Positions 6,259 to 38,705 of a stretch of 39,715 nucleotides of DNA are shown here, one piece after another. Every line of letters begins with the position of its first letter. Position 1 is the stretch's first letter. Both the position numbers and the translations under genes were made by a program. The DNA comes from Gallionellales bacterium GWA2_55_18 (GTDB lineage: Bacteria > Pseudomonadota > Gammaproteobacteria > Burkholderiales > Gallionellaceae), in the NCBI GenBank assembly GCA_001801055.1, contig MGWP01000047.1, positions 1-39,715 of the forward strand, given 5' to 3'. The notes below the pieces were generated by a model that was not told the DNA's origin, did no database searches, and worked only from the letters and a program-made list of their open reading frames with translations.

Positions 6259-6519
6259 ATGAAACTATCTGCTCTTGTTGCTGCTCTGTTGGCTCTTGCT
6301 TTGACCGCATGTGGCGGTGGCGCTCCAGCTCCTGCTGCTGCCCCAGCTGCACCAGCTCCTGCTGCTGCACCAGCTCCTGCTGCTGCTCCGGCTGCTGCTG
6401 CTCCGGCTGCTGATGCTGCCGCCGCTCCTGCTGCTGCCGCTCCGGCTGCTGCCGCTCCTGCTGCTGCTGCCGCTCCGGCTGCTGCTGCTCCTGCTGCTGA
6501 CGCTGCAAAGAAACACTAA
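6259..6519 (+). CDS. Small Ala/Pro-rich lipoprotein
   Basis: The 86-residue product starts with a lipoprotein signal: a hydrophobic stretch ending in the lipobox LTAC with Cys18 as the predicted lipidated residue. The mature part is almost wholly Ala and Pro in repeats such as APAAAP, ending in DAAKKH. Such sequence would give an extended periplasmic stalk or tether; no enzyme is implied. The start is fixed by GAGGA six bases upstream of the ATG. The Ala codons are nearly all GCT or GCC, making a long triplet-like tract prone to slippage, so length probably varies between strains. A strong terminator follows 21 bases after the stop. Confidence 0.8.
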   Translation: MKLSALVAALLALALTACGGGAPAPAAAPAAPAPAAAPAPAAAPAAAAPAADAAAAPAAAAPAAAAPAAAAAPAAAAPAADAAKKH

Positions 6520-7355: not shown

Positions 7356-7680
7356 TTACTGGTTAATATTTTTGTAAATTGCCTCAATCATCTGCTTGGT
7401 GGCGTCCCCGCTAACGCCGTCCTGGCTGGTGACGGACACTTCACATGCCTTGCCGCCATCTTTGACATTCACACGGTAATGCGTGTTGGTAATCTCGCTA
7501 TTTTTCCAGAATTGCAAATTATCCAGCCAGCCGCTTTCTGCTTTGGCAGAGCGCAGGGAGTAAACACCCTTGGCACGGTCATTGGTCTCCACTGCCAAAC
7601 CGGCGCGCTCGATAGCAAGGCCCACCTTGCGCCATGACTTATCAAATGTATCATTCACCACGATGACGCTGCTGCCGTCA
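7356..7680 (-). repeat. bamC intragenic duplication, second copy
   Basis: This DNA is a diverged direct copy of 7782-8106 at an offset of 426 bp. Both copies share runs such as GTGACGGACACTTCACA on the plus strand. The high nucleotide match, not only the protein match, points to a fairly recent duplication or ongoing gene conversion. Confidence 0.85.
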
Positions 7681-8873
7681 AAAACCTCTTGCAGGCTTGC
7701 TGTCCCTACCGGTCCTGTTGTATTGATGGAAGATGCGGGTACATTAATGGAAGATGCGGAAACTGGCGTCGCGCCAATCTCGACCTGATCTATATTCTTG
7801 TAAATAGCCTCAACCATCTGCTTGCTTGCATGGTCGCTTACACCATCCAAGTCGGTGACGGACACTTCACACGCTGTGCCGTCATCTTTGACATTCACGC
7901 GGTAACGCGTGTTGGTATTTTGTCCGTTTTTCCAGAACTGCAGCTTATCCATCCAGCCGCTTTCTGCTTTGGGTGGACGCAGAAAGTAAATACCCTTTGT
8001 GCGATCCTTGTCTTCTACGGCAAAACCCGCACGCTCGATAGCGAGGCCTACCCTGCGCCAGGATCTGTCGAACGCATCATGCATCACAATGACGCTGTTG
8101 CCGTCAGAAGTCTCATACAGCCTGACTGCCCCCGCCGCCGAGCCGGGCACACCGCCCGCCACGCTGCTGGCCGTTTGAGCTTCGCTGCCGCCGAAACGCA
8201 CCATCAAGCGCTGCAACATGATGGTTTCCTTCTCGGAATCATTGGCTCGCACTTGCCACTGGGATATATTCTGGTCGGCAGACATGTCCACTTCCATGCC
8301 GCGATGGGAGATGTATACCTCAGTACTCACACCATCCTTGCCGCGCTCCAGACGCACACGATACTGGTCGCGCTCGCCGGATGAATTGACCCTATCAAGC
8401 ATTTTTTCAAACCAGTTGCGAGGGGTATTGGGGCGGTTCTCTGCCCAATCGGTTTCGATCACGCCTGCCGCCTGGTCTTCACTCTTGATAGTCAAGCCGC
8501 TTTCCTGCAAGAAAGCCTTGACCACCAGCCAGACATTGTCCGGTGTGTCTTTCACCGCCAGCCAGCGTTGTGCGCCATTGCGCTCCAAACTCACATTCTT
8601 CATCTGCGGCAATACTGTACCTGCGCGGCCTCGTGTTGCCGCTACGCCGCCCTTGCTGTAATCGGAAAAAGTCGCGACAGATCCGTCATCGCCCTGCGGC
8701 ACTCTATAGCGTTCATCCCTGCCGGGAGCCGTCAGGTCGGGCGGTATCTCCAGCGCCGGTGCTTGCTCCGCACCGGAGCGATAGTCGATACGCTTGTTGC
8801 CCAAGCCAAGCGTGTTGCATCCCGCCAGCATAACCAGCACAACGCTGAACATTCCAATATGTAAAACTTTCAT
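7356..8873 (-). CDS. bamC: Outer membrane assembly lipoprotein BamC with duplicated C-terminal domain
   Basis: BamC is a lipoprotein partner of the BAM complex that inserts beta-barrel proteins into the outer membrane. The start at 8873 has GGAGAG upstream and gives a signal with the lipobox LAGC (Cys19). An unstructured stretch IDYRSGAEQAPALEIPPDL, typical of BamC, follows. The protein is 505 residues against about 340 in E. coli. The surplus is a tandem duplication: residues 259-363 and 400-505 align without gaps at an offset of 142 residues, sharing SVIV-DFDxSWR, GLAIERAG, FWKN, YRVNVKD and AIYKNI. So it has one N-terminal and two C-terminal helix-grip domains. It follows dapA by 24 bases, as in E. 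coli dapA-nlpB. Confidence 0.9.
   Translation of the reverse strand: MKVLHIGMFSVVLVMLAGCNTLGLGNKRIDYRSGAEQAPALEIPPDLTAPGRDERYRVPQGDDGSVATFSDYSKGGVAATRGRAGTVLPQMKNVSLERNGAQRWLAVKDTPDNVWLVVKAFLQESGLTIKSEDQAAGVIETDWAENRPNTPRNWFEKMLDRVNSSGERDQYRVRLERGKDGVSTEVYISHRGMEVDMSADQNISQWQVRANDSEKETIMLQRLMVRFGGSEAQTASSVAGGVPGSAAGAVRLYETSDGNSVIVMHDAFDRSWRRVGLAIERAGFAVEDKDRTKGIYFLRPPKAESGWMDKLQFWKNGQNTNTRYRVNVKDDGTACEVSVTDLDGVSDHASKQMVEAIYKNIDQVEIGATPVSASSINVPASSINTTGPVGTASLQEVFDGSSVIVVNDTFDKSWRKVGLAIERAGLAVETNDRAKGVYSLRSAKAESGWLDNLQFWKNSEITNTHYRVNVKDGGKACEVSVTSQDGVSGDATKQMIEAIYKNINQ
7782..8106 (-). repeat. bamC intragenic duplication, first copy
   Basis: Partner of 7356-7680. The linker between the copies holds a small extra repeat encoding SASSIN and PASSIN, seen as two GGAAGATGCGG runs on the plus strand. 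Confidence 0.85.
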
Positions 8874-8897
8874 TGTTTCTCTCTCCGACTGCATTGC

Positions 8898-16143: not shown

Positions 16144-17697
16144 TTAGTGAACCCCTAAATTTTTCCCCGCCATCACTTCGGCTACGGTGTAGAACGACCC
16201 GAAGGCCGCGATTCTATCATTTTCACCCGCCGCGTTACAGGCATAACGCAACGCTTCGCCGACGTTATGGAAGGCTTGAATTTCCCCGCGCACGCCGCGC
16301 TGCCGCAACACTTGCGCCAGCTCATCGGCGCTCGCGCCACGCGGTGCGGCGATACCCGCCACCAGCCAGGTATCGATATGCGGATCGAGCGCCGCCGCCA
16401 CCCCCGCCATGTCCTTGTCCCCAAGCATCGCAAACACCGCCCAGGTATGCGGACAGGGCGGCAAGCTGGCGAGATTTTGCGCCAGCGAGCGCGCCGCATG
16501 GGGGTTGTGCGCCACATCCAAGATCAGCGCCGGTTTGCCCGGTATAACCTGAAAACGCCCTGCCAATCGCACCTCGACCAGCCCGCGCCGCACCGCCTCC
16601 ATACTCACCGGCAAGCGCTCCTTCAGCGCATCCAGCGCCGCCAACACCGCGCAGGCGTTGTTAAGCTGAAATGCGCCGCGCAACGCCGGGTACGGCAAGG
16701 AATTGCGCGCGCCGATTGTGCTGCGGTAGTTCCACTGCATCGACCCCTTCCCCCTCCCCTCCCCCGGAGGGAGAGGGGCTTCTAGTTCCCTCTCCCTCCG
16801 GGGGAGGGCTAAGGAGGGGGAGTGTGAGATGACAATAGTGCGTGATACATCGCCACTTCCCTCTCTGATGGAACTACTAGCCATCTGACTAGGCTGTCCA
16901 ACAACGACAGCCAAGTCATTGGTTACCTCACTCCCTCTCCCGCCTGCGGGAGAGGGAAGTTGAAACCCAAATTCCCGCCCGATCCGCCAAAGTTGTGCGC
17001 CAACTTTTTCGGCATGGTCAATAATCGCCTGCGGCACATCCGCATCCGCACAAATAGCCACCTTGCCGCTGCGGAATATCCCCGCCTTCTCGAAAGCGAT
17101 CTGCTCGCGCGTCTCGCCGAGGTAATCGGTGTGGTCGATATCCACATTGGTCACCACCGCGCAGTCGTTATCGAACGCGTTAACCGCATCCAGCCTGCCG
17201 CCCAGCCCGACTTCGAGAATCGCGACATCCACCTTGTGTTCGATGAAGCACTGCATCGCCGCCAGCGTGCCAAATTCAAAATAGGTCAGGGGAATATCAA
17301 CCGGTGCTGACGGTTGCCCCCTCCCCTTCAAGGGGAGGGTTGGGGTGGGGATGGGTATCTCGTCATTCGCGCCTTGCCCTTTGCGCGCCCGCTCGATTTT
17401 TTCAAAGGAAGCGCACAACTCCGCATCGCTCGCCTGCCGCTTGCCGATGCGCACGCGCTCGTTGTAATGCAGCAGATGCGGCGAGGTGTAGCAGCCGACC
17501 CGGTATCCGGCGGCGTGCAGCATGCTTTCCAGCATCGCGCACACCGAACCCTTGCCGTTGGTGCCGCCGACCGTGATGATGGGAAAATCAGGCTGTAGAT
17601 TCAACCGCTGCTTGACCTGCGCCACGCGCTCCAGGCCGAGCGCGATGGTCTTGGGATGCAGGGATTCGAGGTAGCTTAGCCAGTCGTGTAAATTCAT
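16144..17697 (-). CDS. folC: Dihydrofolate/folylpolyglutamate synthase FolC with two repeat-derived insertions
   Basis: FolC adds glycine-pteroate coupling glutamate and then further glutamates to folates. The ATP loop TVGGTNGKGS (residues about 42-51), TSPHL, EVGLGGRLDAVN, DHTDYLG and the C-terminal LILDVAHNPHAA are intact. The protein is 517 residues against about 420 in E. coli. The surplus is two blocks encoded by C-rich palindromic repeats: residues about 112-136 (PIPTPTLPLKGRG) and about 245-320 (QLPSPAGGRG to PLPPGEGRGKG). Both keep the frame. The start ATG at 17697 lies in the terminal inverted repeat of a MITE-like element; a longer start at 17733 lies wholly inside that element. No clear ribosome site is seen for either. 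The protein is probably functional but this is not certain. Confidence 0.9.
   Translation of the reverse strand: MNLHDWLSYLESLHPKTIALGLERVAQVKQRLNLQPDFPIITVGGTNGKGSVCAMLESMLHAAGYRVGCYTSPHLLHYNERVRIGKRQASDAELCASFEKIERARKGQGANDEIPIPTPTLPLKGRGQPSAPVDIPLTYFEFGTLAAMQCFIEHKVDVAILEVGLGGRLDAVNAFDNDCAVVTNVDIDHTDYLGETREQIAFEKAGIFRSGKVAICADADVPQAIIDHAEKVGAQLWRIGREFGFQLPSPAGGRGSEVTNDLAVVVGQPSQMASSSIREGSGDVSRTIVISHSPSLALPRRERELEAPLPPGEGRGKGSMQWNYRSTIGARNSLPYPALRGAFQLNNACAVLAALDALKERLPVSMEAVRRGLVEVRLAGRFQVIPGKPALILDVAHNPHAARSLAQNLASLPPCPHTWAVFAMLGDKDMAGVAAALDPHIDTWLVAGIAAPRGASADELAQVLRQRGVRGEIQAFHNVGEALRYACNAAGENDRIAAFGSFYTVAEVMAGKNLGVH
16738..16963. repeat. Composite C-rich repeat inside folC
   Basis: The block begins with a CCCCTCCCCTCCCCCGGAGG hairpin and its second half CCCTCTCCCTCCGGGGGAGG, runs through a spacer, includes the 50-bp palindromic element (16876-16925), and ends in a CCCTCTCCCGCCTGCGGGAG hairpin. 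The same arrangement occurs at 28420-28585 between leuB and leuD. Here it is about 226 bp and translates without stops as part of FolC. Confidence 0.8.
16876..16925 (+). repeat. 50-bp palindromic element, copy A (in folC)
   Basis: Begins ACTAGCCATCTGACTAGG and ends CCAAGTCATTGGTTA. The tip stem is GGCTGTC paired with GACAGCC around a 7-base loop. Read in the minus direction it encodes NDLAVVVGQPSQMASS within FolC. Other copies lie at 23311-23360, 26012-26061 and 28507-28556. Confidence 0.85.
17316..17356. repeat. Short C-rich palindrome inside folC
   Basis: CCCCCTCCCCTTCAAGGGGA and the following GGGTTGGGGTGGGG form a hairpin that is almost the same as the arms of the composite element at 28420-28585. 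It encodes PTPTLPLKGRG in FolC and keeps the frame. Confidence 0.75.
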
Positions 17698-17807
17698 TTT
17701 CCGGGCGAATCGCGGTGTCGCGTGCTCGCTCATTCCTCGCCTACTATCAAGGTATGTCTCATCATTCGCTGCGCGGCTCCTTGCGCTTCATCCCGGAAAA
17801 TGAATTT
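17690..17807 (+). mobile_element. 118-bp MITE-like element at the folC start
   Basis: Perfect 16-bp terminal inverted repeats AAATTCATTTTCCGGG (17690-17705 and 17792-17807). The minus strand inside carries GGGATGAAGCGCAAGGAG and CGACACCGCGATTCGCCC, also present in the element at 29239-29374, where the matching core has the same 118-bp length. No target duplication was recognised. The left end contains the folC start codon. It encodes no protein, so it would need a transposase in trans. Confidence 0.8.
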
Positions 17808-17829
17808 CCAAAGTCTCGTTGAACATCCG

Positions 17830-23283: not shown

Positions 23284-23311
23284 AACGGCGGCCCAATATT
23301 GAGCCGCCGTT
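23284..23311 (-). terminator. Intrinsic terminator of fimV
   Basis: AACGGCGGC and its complement GCCGCCGTT flank a short AT centre, and the minus strand continues with TTTTCTTTTT. It ends transcription about 60 bases after the fimV stop. The 50-bp palindromic element copy B abuts it directly on the fimV side. Confidence 0.85.
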
Positions 23312-23360
23312 AACCAATGACTTGGTTGGCGTGGTTTGCCAACTTAGTCAGATGGCTATA
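23311..23360 (-). repeat. 50-bp palindromic element, copy B (after fimV)
   Basis: On the minus strand it begins TATAGCCATCTGACTAAG and ends CCAAGTCATTGGTTA. The tip stem is GTTGGC paired with GCCAAC around a 7-base loop, different from the other copies but still paired. Confidence 0.82.
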
Positions 23361-23372
23361 CAAAGCATCAAA

Positions 23373-26084
23373 TTAACCGATTTGATCGAGCAGGGATTGC
23401 GCGGTTTCACGCTGCCCCTCGTCACCCTCGCGCAGAACTTCCTCAAGAATTTCTCGCGCACCGACGGCATCGCCCATTTCCTGATAGGCCTTGGCCAAAT
23501 CGAGTTTTGTCGCAACCTCGTGCCAATGTTCATCTTTGGCATCTGGTGCCGGTTCGCTCGGCATTGCCGTGTCATCCATATTCAGGCTGATATCCGCCAA
23601 GTCGATTTCGGCGGGTTGTACTTTTGGTGCTGGCTTCGCGGCCATATCTGCCACCGGAAAATCCAGCGTAAACTCCATTCCGTCTTCATCAACCGGCGCT
23701 TCCTCTACATGCTCAGCTTCCGGCTGCGCCGCAGGCATGGGCGAATGGGTTGACGTGACATCAAAAACCAAATCGTTCAGATCCGACGATTCCGCTTCGG
23801 CCTGCCCACCGGTTTCCGGTATTGGAGAGTCGGTTGAAGTAATATCAAAATCCATCCCTTCCGGCGCGCTGAGTGATGTACTGTCGGATGATGTTATATC
23901 GAAACCCGTCTCGACCGGCGCAGCCAGCGAAGATTTAGTCGATGTCACATCAAAATCCATGGATTCTTCCTGAACTGCAACCATGTCCTCAGGCGACACA
24001 ATCGCGGTCTTGTCCGCATCGCCCAAATCGAAATCCACATCGGCAGCCAGTGCCTCCTGCGCCGTTGATGTATCGTCCAAAACAAAGTCCGGGCTGAATG
24101 TGCTCATTTGTTTGGCCATGCTACCCACATCTTCATTTGCATCGATCGCGGCTATCTGCATGGTCGCGCTATCCGCATCCTCAATGGTTCCACCGCCATA
24201 CATCGGGTTATTCGGTTCCAGCTTGCGCCCCATTGTGGCGGCCTGCTGCCACGCCTCTTCATCACCGGAGTCCTGCAACTGGCGCGCGATTGCAGAGAAA
24301 GAATTTGTATCTTTGCGGTTGAGGTAAATGCCCAGCAATTTCAGATGGATCCGATGATCGTCCGGCATTCTATGCAAAGCATCCTTCAGTATCTCTTCCG
24401 CCTGCACATCACGCCCGAAATTCAGGAATAAATCCGCCTCGTTAATCGGATCGACATCATCCGGTTTGGCGCCTTCTTCAACTACTGGCGCCGCTGCCAC
24501 GCTGGTAAAATCACCGGTTTCCGGAGATGGTGCAACTGGTGCGGTGATACGCCCGGTCTGCACACCGTCATCCTTGCTGTCGGCAGCAGTGAAGGCGCGT
24601 TTGCGGCGGTTCAACATAAAGCCGATACCACCCAAGCCAAGCAGGATCGCCACCACACCGATGAGATAAAGCGGCTCACCAAGAATCGTATCTACCAGGG
24701 AAGGTTCCGGTGCAACCACTTTAGGTTTCGGCTTTGGAGCTGGTGCCGGTTTGACCGCACTGGCGGCAGCTATTTCGCTGGCTGCAATAACCGGTGAAGC
24801 TGCGGCCACATCGGATGCTGCGCCTGGAGATTTCAACAATGCCGCAGCCTCGGCTTTCAGTTCGGCGAGGCGCTGCATATCCTTGAGGTTCTTTTCCAGC
24901 AATGCGGTACGCGTTTGCTCCTCTTTCAAGGTCTTGGCCTTCGCAATCGCATTTTCCTGCTCGGCATTCTTCCTGTCTTGCGCAGTCTGGGTTTTTCCTG
25001 CCGCACCAGTGTCAGCCTTGTCTCCGGGTGCTTCGCCCTTGGACAATCTCAGCACTTCTCTGGCGGATTCTTTGGCAATTGGCGCCTTATCTGCAACCGA
25101 ACTGGCAATCTTGCCGGTGGCGACTTGCTGTGCATCTTGAGGCTGGCTACTGGTTGTAGCAGCGCTGGCCAGTTTTTGCCGGTAGGCATTCCAGTCTGCC
25201 GTCTGGGCGCGAATCTCCTTTGCCGCATCGGACTGCCCCACACCCATCAACTCACTCTGATCCGGCAAACGCAAAATTTTGCCAGCCCTGATGCGATTCA
25301 TGTTCTTGCCGTCGAATTGATCGGCATTGGCACGATATAACGCGACCAGCATGCGCTCCAGACTTACTTCAGCCGGCTTGTTCTGCGCGGCAATTTTGTT
25401 CAATGTGTCGCCGCTACGAACGATGATATCGCCTGTGGCTATACTCTTTTCCCGTGATTCAGCGGCAGCTCGCTTTGCCGGTGCAACCATTGTCTGTCTT
25501 TCGTCAGGTTGGCTCTCAGCGGCTTCCGGGGCGACCTGCTCTGCGGGCTTGGCTACCATTTTCGGTGGAGCGGATTGCACTGCCGGCGCTACGGTTTGCA
25601 CTTCCGCTTGCTTGGGCTGTTCGACAGCATAACCTGGCGGATCCAGCAGAAAAGTATATTCGCGCAACAGCCTGCCGGATGCCCAGGACAATTCGACCAG
25701 AACGCTTACGAAGGGATCGTTGACCGGTTGCTCGCTGCGTACTTTGAGATATGACTCGCCATTCGCGCGGCTTTCGATCTGGAACTTGAATTTATTGCCG
25801 TAAGGGTATTCCAGCCCAGCGCCCTTATAGGCATCGGGTGAGGCAAGGCGTGCAACCAAGCTGGCTTTGTCGGCCTTGCCGACCGCCACCAATTCGATAT
25901 CGGCTTTCAGCGGTTGACCCAAAGCGGAAGCCACATTTATTCCACCCATGCCAACGGCAGAAACATATGTGGACAGTGTCAAAGCAGCAACGAACCCGAG
26001 CAGCTTCAGTGTAACCAGCGACTTGGCTGTGGTCTTATGACAGCCTAGTCGAATGGCTAGTAGTTTTAACAGTGACTTTCGCAC
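23373..26084 (-). CDS. fimV: FimV/HubP-family polar peptidoglycan-binding protein
   Basis: FimV proteins organise the cell pole and support type IV pili and chemosensory clusters. The 903-residue protein has a signal or anchor helix at about residues 22-43, the conserved GGINVASALGQPLKADIELV start of the mature domain, a LysM motif at about 217-274 (VRSGDTLNKIA), a coiled coil near 370-415, a membrane helix at about 471-491, a long acidic cytoplasmic part, and a C-terminal TPR-like cap (DLAKAYQEMGDAVGAREILE). The acidic part repeats DFDVTST or DFDITST four times. The start is GTG with AAGGTG upstream. Residues 8-24 are encoded by the 50-bp palindromic element, so the signal peptide N-terminus is repeat-derived. 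Confidence 0.9.
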   Translation of the reverse strand: MRKSLLKLLAIRLGCHKTTAKSLVTLKLLGFVAALTLSTYVSAVGMGGINVASALGQPLKADIELVAVGKADKASLVARLASPDAYKGAGLEYPYGNKFKFQIESRANGESYLKVRSEQPVNDPFVSVLVELSWASGRLLREYTFLLDPPGYAVEQPKQAEVQTVAPAVQSAPPKMVAKPAEQVAPEAAESQPDERQTMVAPAKRAAAESREKSIATGDIIVRSGDTLNKIAAQNKPAEVSLERMLVALYRANADQFDGKNMNRIRAGKILRLPDQSELMGVGQSDAAKEIRAQTADWNAYRQKLASAATTSSQPQDAQQVATGKIASSVADKAPIAKESAREVLRLSKGEAPGDKADTGAAGKTQTAQDRKNAEQENAIAKAKTLKEEQTRTALLEKNLKDMQRLAELKAEAAALLKSPGAASDVAAASPVIAASEIAAASAVKPAPAPKPKPKVVAPEPSLVDTILGEPLYLIGVVAILLGLGGIGFMLNRRKRAFTAADSKDDGVQTGRITAPVAPSPETGDFTSVAAAPVVEEGAKPDDVDPINEADLFLNFGRDVQAEEILKDALHRMPDDHRIHLKLLGIYLNRKDTNSFSAIARQLQDSGDEEAWQQAATMGRKLEPNNPMYGGGTIEDADSATMQIAAIDANEDVGSMAKQMSTFSPDFVLDDTSTAQEALAADVDFDLGDADKTAIVSPEDMVAVQEESMDFDVTSTKSSLAAPVETGFDITSSDSTSLSAPEGMDFDITSTDSPIPETGGQAEAESSDLNDLVFDVTSTHSPMPAAQPEAEHVEEAPVDEDGMEFTLDFPVADMAAKPAPKVQPAEIDLADISLNMDDTAMPSEPAPDAKDEHWHEVATKLDLAKAYQEMGDAVGAREILEEVLREGDEGQRETAQSLLDQIG
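26012..26061 (-). repeat. 50-bp palindromic element, copy C (in fimV)
   Basis: On the minus strand it begins ACTAGCCATTCGACTAGG and ends CCAAGTCGCTGGTTA, with tip arms GGCTGT and ACAGCC. It lies in the fimV coding sequence and encodes LLAIRLGCHKTTAKSLV, the residues before the hydrophobic signal core. Confidence 0.85.
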
Positions 26085-28419: not shown

Positions 28420-28585
28420 CCCCCCTCCCCCTTCAAGGGGGAGGTTGGGAGGGGGATGGGGATAAAACACGCATCCAGAAAATCACCCCCATCCCCTGAT
28501 GAAACCACTAGCCATTCGACTAGGCCGCTAAAAGACAGCGGCCAAATCGCTGGTTAACCCTAACCCTCCCCTTGAAGGGGAGGGA
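28420..28585. repeat. Composite C-rich repeat between leuB and leuD
   Basis: It starts with a CCCCCTCCCCCTTCAAGGGG hairpin, then a GAGGGGGATGGGG/CCCCCATCCCC inverted pair, the 50-bp element (28507-28556), and a closing CCCTCCCCTTGAAGGGGAGG hairpin. The order matches the copy inside folC at 16738-16963. It occupies most of the 221-bp gap between leuB and leuD and could attenuate leuB expression. Confidence 0.82.
28507..28556 (+). repeat. 50-bp palindromic element, copy D (leuB-leuD)
   Basis: Begins ACTAGCCATTCGACTAGG and ends CCAAATCGCTGGTTA. The tip stem is GGCCGCT paired with AGCGGCC around a 7-base loop. Confidence 0.85.
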
Positions 28586-29238: not shown

Positions 29239-29374
29239 TGCCTCTAGAAATTCATTTTGCGGGATGAAGCGCAAGGAGTCGCGCAGTGAGTGACGAGGCA
29301 TATCATTCAGATAGACGAGGAGCGAACGAGCACACGACACCGCGATTCGCCCGCAAAATGGATTTATAGAGGCA
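29239..29374 (+). mobile_element. MITE-like element between leuD and the entericidin gene
   Basis: Outer arms TGCCTCTA and TAGAGGCA extend the inner 16-bp arms (29248-29263 and 29350-29365) to a 25-bp inverted repeat with two mismatches. The inner 118 bp align along their length with the element at 17690-17807 (inverted). No coding sequence inside. It lies in the leucine operon between ecn and leuD without stopping either gene. Confidence 0.82.
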
Positions 29375-37867: not shown

Positions 37868-37910
37868 ATCTGAACTCCAAGAGTTAATAAATGAATTGTA
37901 GTGCCATCGC

Positions 37911-38705
37911 TCAATCCAATGGCACGCGCCGCCAATTATTACCAGGGCCTATTGAAAGACCGCCACCAGGGCCAATTGATTGCCCACCCCCGGGACCTAT
38001 TGAAAGGCCACCACCAGGGCCAATTGATTGCCCGCCTCCGGGGCCTATTGAAAGACCACCACCAGGGCCAATTGATTGCCCGCCCCCAGGACCTATTGAA
38101 AGTCCGCCCCCAGGGCCAATTGAAAGCCCACCTCCGGGACCTATAGAAAGTCCGCCTCCAGGGCCAATTGAAAGCCCACCTCCGGGGCCTATAGAGCAAG
38201 GCCCGCCGGGACCGATGGAGCCAATGCACTCGCCACCTTCTCCAGATGCTCTCGCCCTCCATTTAATCTGTTCACGATTGGCGGGGTTTTCATAATCCCC
38301 TTCATCGTTAGAAGAATAGGAGCTGCCTTGAGTAGCCAAGGTTGAATCCGCTGATTTATTCAGTGGCCGAGCAACAACCGTCACCTTTTTAGGAAATGGC
38401 AAGATCGAAACTCTGTCGTTACGAACTTCAGAAAAACCTTGAGATTGCAGTTGAATCCGTCTATTCACAAAGACCTCGTTGCTTTTATTACTTCGCAGAT
38501 AACAAGACGATCTCTCACTGGTTTGAATCAAATAACCTCCAGGATATTTTGATTTTATGCCTTCGCTAATTGGAATCGACAAATCAAAAGGTGGCTCTGA
38601 GGATTTGTAAACTGGTTTATCAGATTTGTCATACACGGTGTAACATGCTGCTAATGACGTGGAACCGAAAGTTAGCATCAGCACAATAAGAATAAGCATT
38701 CGCAT
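37911..38705 (-). CDS. Exported protein with twelve GPGGG octapeptide repeats
   Basis: A 264-residue exported protein. The N-terminus is a signal peptide ending LAAC, which fits either signal peptidase I or a lipobox with Cys21. A Cys/Lys-containing domain follows (residues 20-115). The C-terminal third is twelve octapeptides of the form SIGPGGGL or SIGPGGGQ, residues 163-258. In the later units L and Q alternate, which makes a 48-bp higher-order DNA repeat. I start at ATG 38705, after GGGGG; ATG 38720 is also open. Such glycine repeats usually form flexible or polyproline-II-like surface segments. Function unknown. The repeat makes an antisense Pro-rich frame, which I do not accept as a gene. 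Confidence 0.75.
   Translation of the reverse strand: MRMLILIVLMLTFGSTSLAACYTVYDKSDKPVYKSSEPPFDLSIPISEGIKSKYPGGYLIQTSERSSCYLRSNKSNEVFVNRRIQLQSQGFSEVRNDRVSILPFPKKVTVVARPLNKSADSTLATQGSSYSSNDEGDYENPANREQIKWRARASGEGGECIGSIGPGGPCSIGPGGGLSIGPGGGLSIGPGGGLSIGPGGGLSIGPGGGQSIGPGGGLSIGPGGGQSIGPGGGLSIGPGGGQSIGPGGGLSIGPGNNWRRVPLD
37932..38219 (-). repeat. Tandem 24-bp coding repeat, 12 units
   Basis: Twelve 24-bp units; the first and last are degenerate, the ten inner ones encode SIGPGGG plus L or Q. There are no unique spacers, so this is a coding satellite and not a CRISPR array. Confidence 0.92.

Follow-up and report, generated by a model that had tools for sequence, protein, structure and literature searches.

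Recurrent in-frame insertion of palindromic repeats at the same FolC loops in Gallionellaceae, probably as tolerated passengers

It has long been asked to what extent selfish DNA really lengthens working proteins, and Rickettsia is the best-known case of palindromic repeats inserted in-frame. The question is raised by the folC gene of the window (the whole 39,715-nucleotide stretch of DNA that was analysed), which an earlier note had described as enlarged by about 100 residues through in-frame repeats that leave the ATP and metal motifs unbroken. Both points were borne out, as the frame is open, the net gain from the two inserts is 97 residues compared with sister species L068, which is without both, and the two motifs are invariant. 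The sizes proposed at that time (76 and 25 residues) were nearly right. The features of the gene are as follows.

16144..17697, minus strand: folC, dihydrofolate/folylpolyglutamate synthase of 517 aa with two in-frame inserts (NCBIfam and PDB matches, core dN/dS)
17545..17568, minus strand: P-loop GGTNGKGS, intact (invariant in 27 FolC)
16495..16518, minus strand: DVAHNPHA motif, intact (invariant in 27 FolC)
17299..17382, minus strand: loop 1 insert (core column 118), 28 codons where sister L068 has 1 (alignment with relatives)
17317..17339, no strand assigned: C-rich palindrome CCCTCCCCTTCAAGGGGAGGG in the loop 1 insert (inverted repeat with 28557-28584, 96%; direct copy at 28422-28463)
16738..16962, minus strand: loop 2 insert (core column 230), 75 codons where sister L068 has 5 (alignment with 48 relatives)
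16744..16821, no strand assigned: C-rich palindrome block, older insert, inverted pair (self-complementary match 16749-16821; similar blocks at the same site in L063 and L018)
16859..16956, no strand assigned: second C-rich palindrome, older insert, CCCTCTC[60-bp element]CCTCACTCCCTCTCCCGCCTGCGGGAGAGGG (split by the 60-bp element; unsplit in L002, L061 and L065)
16866..16925, plus strand: 60-bp hairpin element, about 20 codons, nested in the older C-rich palindromes, VTNDLAVVVGQPSQMASSSIR (empty site, family copies, covariation)

The folC ORF (16144-17733, minus strand) was found to be stop-free, encoding 529 aa from an upstream ATG or 517 aa from position 17697, the start position used by most relatives. 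The upstream ATG (MSEHATPRFARK) is provided by a copy, at 17689-17813, of a 125-bp repeat which overlaps the folC start and forms an inverted pair with 29242-29366 (82% identical). NCBIfam equivalog and subfamily models identify the product as FolC, with a score of 417 bits against a curated cut-off of 360 for NF008101 and the curated cut-off of TIGR01499 also exceeded; the equivalog match is full-length and the catalytic motifs are kept. The PDB matches were 3n2a and 1w78, and the PDB FolC sequences align with that of the window in three pieces, with both reported insert stretches unaligned. The nearest relatives by FolC are named Gallionella, Gallionellales or Nitrosomonadales. Core dN/dS between the window FolC and six relatives is 0.16–0.23 (approximately 0.18), uninserted relatives give similar values among themselves, and the range over all FolC comparisons is 0.09–0.23. 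The FolC core is under purifying selection. Judged by this constraint and by domain integrity, the window FolC is very probably a working enzyme, and its enlarged form is presumably made full-length.

With regard to loop 2, the earlier note had read 16738-16963 as one composite repeat. It is indeed repeat DNA, but it consists of an inverted C-rich pair with a nested 60-bp hairpin rather than a single repeat. The older insert, as seen in L002, L061 and L065, comprises two inverted C-rich palindromes and a short spacer, and these three species present the exact empty site, between GAGG and GAGAGGG. Compared with them, the window is longer by exactly 60 bp, and no target duplication is present. 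In this layered insert, an older C-rich palindrome pair has been split by a younger 60-bp element. An insert like that of loop 1 is found in the near relatives L004 and L067. Both folC inserts are repeat DNA and not chance sequence, since many copies of the 60-bp element are present in the genome, the palindrome at 17317-17339 recurs, and matches to repeat DNA at other places in the fetched loci were obtained for 26 of the 35 FolC inserts across the family (E < 1e-4). In the alignment of relatives, the residues and the repeat DNA are either both present or both missing. An Rfam search of the window matched nothing.

Several other repeats were observed in the window. The 6-phosphogluconolactonase ORF (985-2079) contains a C-rich palindrome peptide (LPLPNPLPQAGEG) directly before its domain, and this peptide may represent an insert at the N terminus or sequence that precedes the true start. 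An alanine/proline-rich repeat tract of the GCTGCTCCGGCT type lies at 6283-6513, two 300-nt copies (78%) at 7359-8084 form an internal duplication within one ORF (7356-8894) for a lipoprotein-like protein, and ten 24-bp tandem repeats at 37894-38243 read SIGPGGGL on one strand with a proline-rich frame on the other.

The 60-bp hairpin element (consensus TGATGNAACTACTAGCC...GCTGGTTA, from 37 copies) is mostly of one length, with 91 of 107 distinct sampled copies being 60 bp and eight being 54 bp. In the alignment of 37 copies its 18-pair hairpin is formed in 94% of cells, and nine pairs have changed on both sides (55 cells; the mean after shuffling is 16.5, and none of 500 shuffles reached the observed level). 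A covariance model identified at least 86 copies in the window's genome; such copy counts are lower bounds, as approximately 90 candidates were scored per genome. The element was matched in 35 of 37 genomes of the window's genus and, at a strict cut-off, in 8 of 15 genera of the family, and in none of 24 genomes from other families of the order. It was also absent from 298 sampled Pseudomonadota genomes besides the window's, a sample which may hold few or no Rickettsia. Within the genomes sampled the element is restricted to the family. Its target preference is for a C|T junction and for C-rich palindromes. By consensus three of its six frames are stop-free, and in the 40 sampled copies with a spanning ORF the frame is always one of the same three; these copies were sampled from fetched loci and are not an exhaustive count. 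A length of, in most cases, exactly 20 codons and the absence of stops from three of the six frames make the element well suited to in-frame insertion.

Further copies in the window lie at 23311-23358, 26012-26071 and 28497-28556. The large LysM/FimV-like ORF (23373-26084) has copies right after its stop and at its start, which may need revision, and one window copy lies between leu genes. A Y1 transposase was considered as the mover of the element and rejected, as only one was found in the window's (incomplete) genome and no 60-bp copy lies within 1.5 kb of it; its gene is flanked by GTAG-type palindromes instead. No transposase could be linked to the 60-bp element. A Y1 transposase gene (REP-associated type) was observed at L145 (G000:C55:46357-46683), between queA-like and tgt-like genes and with GTAG-tagged palindromes on its flanks.

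The same loops were found to be used repeatedly across the Gallionellaceae. In a first set of 48 full or nearly full FolC relatives (core of approximately 432 columns, inserts of at least 6 aa counted), inserts are present at loop 1 (column 118) in 23 species, at loop 2 (column 230) in 10 and at loop 3 (column 409) in two, the sole other internal insert being one of 6 aa near the N terminus. Of 22 FolC in a second set, mostly from other genera of the family, nine have inserts at loop 1 and seven at loop 2, with none outside these two loops; at least two of the 22 (L182 and L186) repeat inserts seen in L071 and L066. On a core-column tree, with 17 of 45 inner branches well supported, these patterns need an approximate 18 changes at loop 1, eight at loop 2 and one at loop 3. 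Among the match pieces listed for FolC of the order's other families, none has room for a loop 1 insert. In the nearby control genes for AccD, TrpA, TrpB and PurF, an internal length change of at least 5 aa was seen in none of 85 comparisons; CvpA and a SPOR-domain protein were left out as controls because nearly all relatives differ in the length of these proteins, within variable or low-complexity regions.

The inserts vary among species in sequence, length and reading frame and are missing in about half of them. At least four unrelated repeat families use loop 1, namely the C-rich palindrome, the GTAG-tagged REP, the RLRGND-type palindrome and the 17689/29242 repeat, of which L075 carries an in-frame copy (E 7.5e-18 with window 29271-29338). 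GTAG-tagged palindromes are found among the FolC inserts in L062, L073, L074 and L011. All three loops host copies of the 60-bp element: in L018 and L078 it sits inside a C-rich palindrome of loop 1, and it occupies loop 3 in L076, and lies at loop 2 in another frame in L192 and as two copies of opposite orientation in L193. The repetition at the same loops across species, the nesting and the presence of the element in other genes were out of sight for the earlier note.

The earlier note had also suggested that the inserts probably lie in surface loops, and this is supported by structure prediction. AF2 pLDDT of the window FolC is below 50 over residues 110–128 (loop 1) and 241–342 (loop 2). 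In the model of the uninserted sister (TM 0.85 with E. coli FolC 1w78), loop 1 is predicted between helices 90–104 and 111–125, loop 2 at the turn between strands 215–220 and 223–228 (a beta-hairpin), and loop 3 between helix 381–391 and strand 397–402, an assignment drawn from modest models built on 26–27 sequences.

FolC is one of many hosts of the 60-bp element. For about half of the 40 copies with a spanning ORF, Pfam backs a real host protein; four of the sampled copies are FolC copies, fetched for that reason. These hosts include TilS, MutS, CobQ, CysS, TsaD, a BioD-like protein, an IspE-like GHMP kinase, an RlmI-like methyltransferase, a short-chain dehydrogenase, an NAD-dependent sugar-nucleotide dehydratase (RmlB-like), MurE-like and MurF-like ligases, a transporter, HsdM, a UvrD-type helicase and a PAS histidine kinase. 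Several spanning ORFs (e.g., L050, L112, L115, L122, L131, and L141) have no Pfam match and were left out of the gene count. CobQ behaves like FolC, with one loop holding C-rich palindromes in some species and a nested 60-bp element in others. In genome G032, adjoining murE-like and murF-like genes (L118:3-2206) each contain an in-frame 60-bp element; FolC and the Mur ligases belong to the same superfamily.

These observations are very probably best explained by small selfish palindromic repeats having enlarged FolC loops as tolerated, near-neutral passengers of an enzyme that still works. Several unrelated repeat families would have spread through Gallionellaceae genomes, and insertions breaking an essential gene would be lost, while insertions that are a multiple of three long, keep the frame open and lie in a dispensable loop would persist as near-neutral. 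FolC would offer two often-used loops of this kind and a rarely used third, their high use presumably reflecting tolerance. A palindrome once in place would itself be a further harmless target, and for this reason later elements would nest there, as the 60-bp hairpin element has done in the window, where it split an older C-rich palindrome.

It could be argued instead that the enlarged loops are useful to the cell, in FolC regulation, partner binding or mRNA folding, and are kept by selection. The return of inserts to the same loops in many species would be in keeping with this, as would a dN/dS near 0.5 for some inserts and the exclusively synonymous change in the very short insert pair of L073 and L074. 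However, most inserts have dN/dS values of 0.5–1.35, they are predicted at very low confidence, as disordered stretches are, their sequence, length and frame differ between species, about half of which do without them, and the same elements occur in unrelated proteins, so that a selected role is considered improbable. Integration at specific sites, by which the elements would recognise folC DNA at these points irrespective of loop tolerance, would account for the very precise recurrence and fits the preference of the 60-bp element noted above, but several unrelated repeat families share one site, uninserted folC sites have no C-rich palindrome and the recurrent CobQ loop differs in sequence from the FolC sites. 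This explanation is regarded as highly improbable. That folC is decaying, perhaps beside a second functional copy, as the earlier note had considered, or that the inserts arose through misassembly of a metagenome bin, is hardly credible. The window's genome is indeed a 1.69 Mb bin, 71.5% complete and in 78 contigs, within which a single folC and no second one was found; however, the frame is open, the motifs are intact, the core is constrained, and dozens of independent assemblies are alike, including a single-contig, 100% complete genome with an inserted FolC (L191, genome G401).

Exchange of alleles bears on the history of the inserts and is compatible with the passenger explanation. Recombination between lineages may explain part of their patchiness, as L068 lacks both inserts, the next relative has one, and L004 and L067 share the other, that of loop 1, and segment distances vary along folC. 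It may also lower the number of independent insertion events. That the patchiness is mostly due to interspecies recombination of inserted and uninserted alleles, after few original insertions, is rather unlikely, and one original insertion per loop is impossible, because different repeat families and frames are found at the same loop.

Within the passenger explanation, a further suggestion is offered tentatively, and with some doubt, that the 60-bp element is still mobile: a family-specific, palindrome-preferring hairpin which some transposase would move without target duplication and by which tolerant protein loops in Gallionellaceae would grow through serial nesting of 20-codon modules. If this were true, FolC would be a natural archive of protein elongation that selfish DNA is still bringing about. 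As it stands, one free-living family provides numerous parallel cases of insertion into the same loops of a single essential enzyme, and the empty, single, nested and double insert states in related species make tolerance, mobility and possible recruitment directly testable. For annotators this is a warning not to take such residues, which are repeat DNA, for domains.

A prior description of the Gallionellaceae 60-bp element was not found among open-licence papers. The recurrence of unrelated families at fixed loops, the nesting and the passage of a usually 20-codon element through the housekeeping genes of one family are new. Small non-autonomous elements such as MITEs are likewise short, palindromic, many-copy and non-coding, but usually measure 70–300 bp (PMC3733652); the 60-bp element is below this size and has no target duplication at its resolved empty site. 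Intragenic GTAG- and CGTC-tagged REPs are small palindromes in ORFs of several species, amounting to approximately 20 to 82 residues in clusters, and have been found at different sites except for two Xanthomonas recB genes with about the same site (PMC3733652). The FolC inserts include GTAG-tagged palindromes, the type which flanks the Y1 transposase gene of the window's own genome. However, FolC inserts return at the same loops in tens of species, and the 37-copy consensus of the 60-bp element lacks a GTAG or CGTC tetranucleotide at the palindrome end. The Rickettsia palindromic elements, with which the earlier note aptly drew a parallel, are described in PMC3733652 as in-frame palindromic repeats in ORFs probably encoding functional proteins. 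The 60-bp element is similarly a palindrome lying in-frame in genes which appear functional by constraint and domain integrity, a likeness offered as an analogy. The lineage and setting differ, the hosts here being free-living betaproteobacterial iron oxidisers, and compared with the Rickettsia elements as described there, the main element has in most copies a length of exactly 60 bp and nests in other palindromes, and one and the same loop is used by several repeat families.
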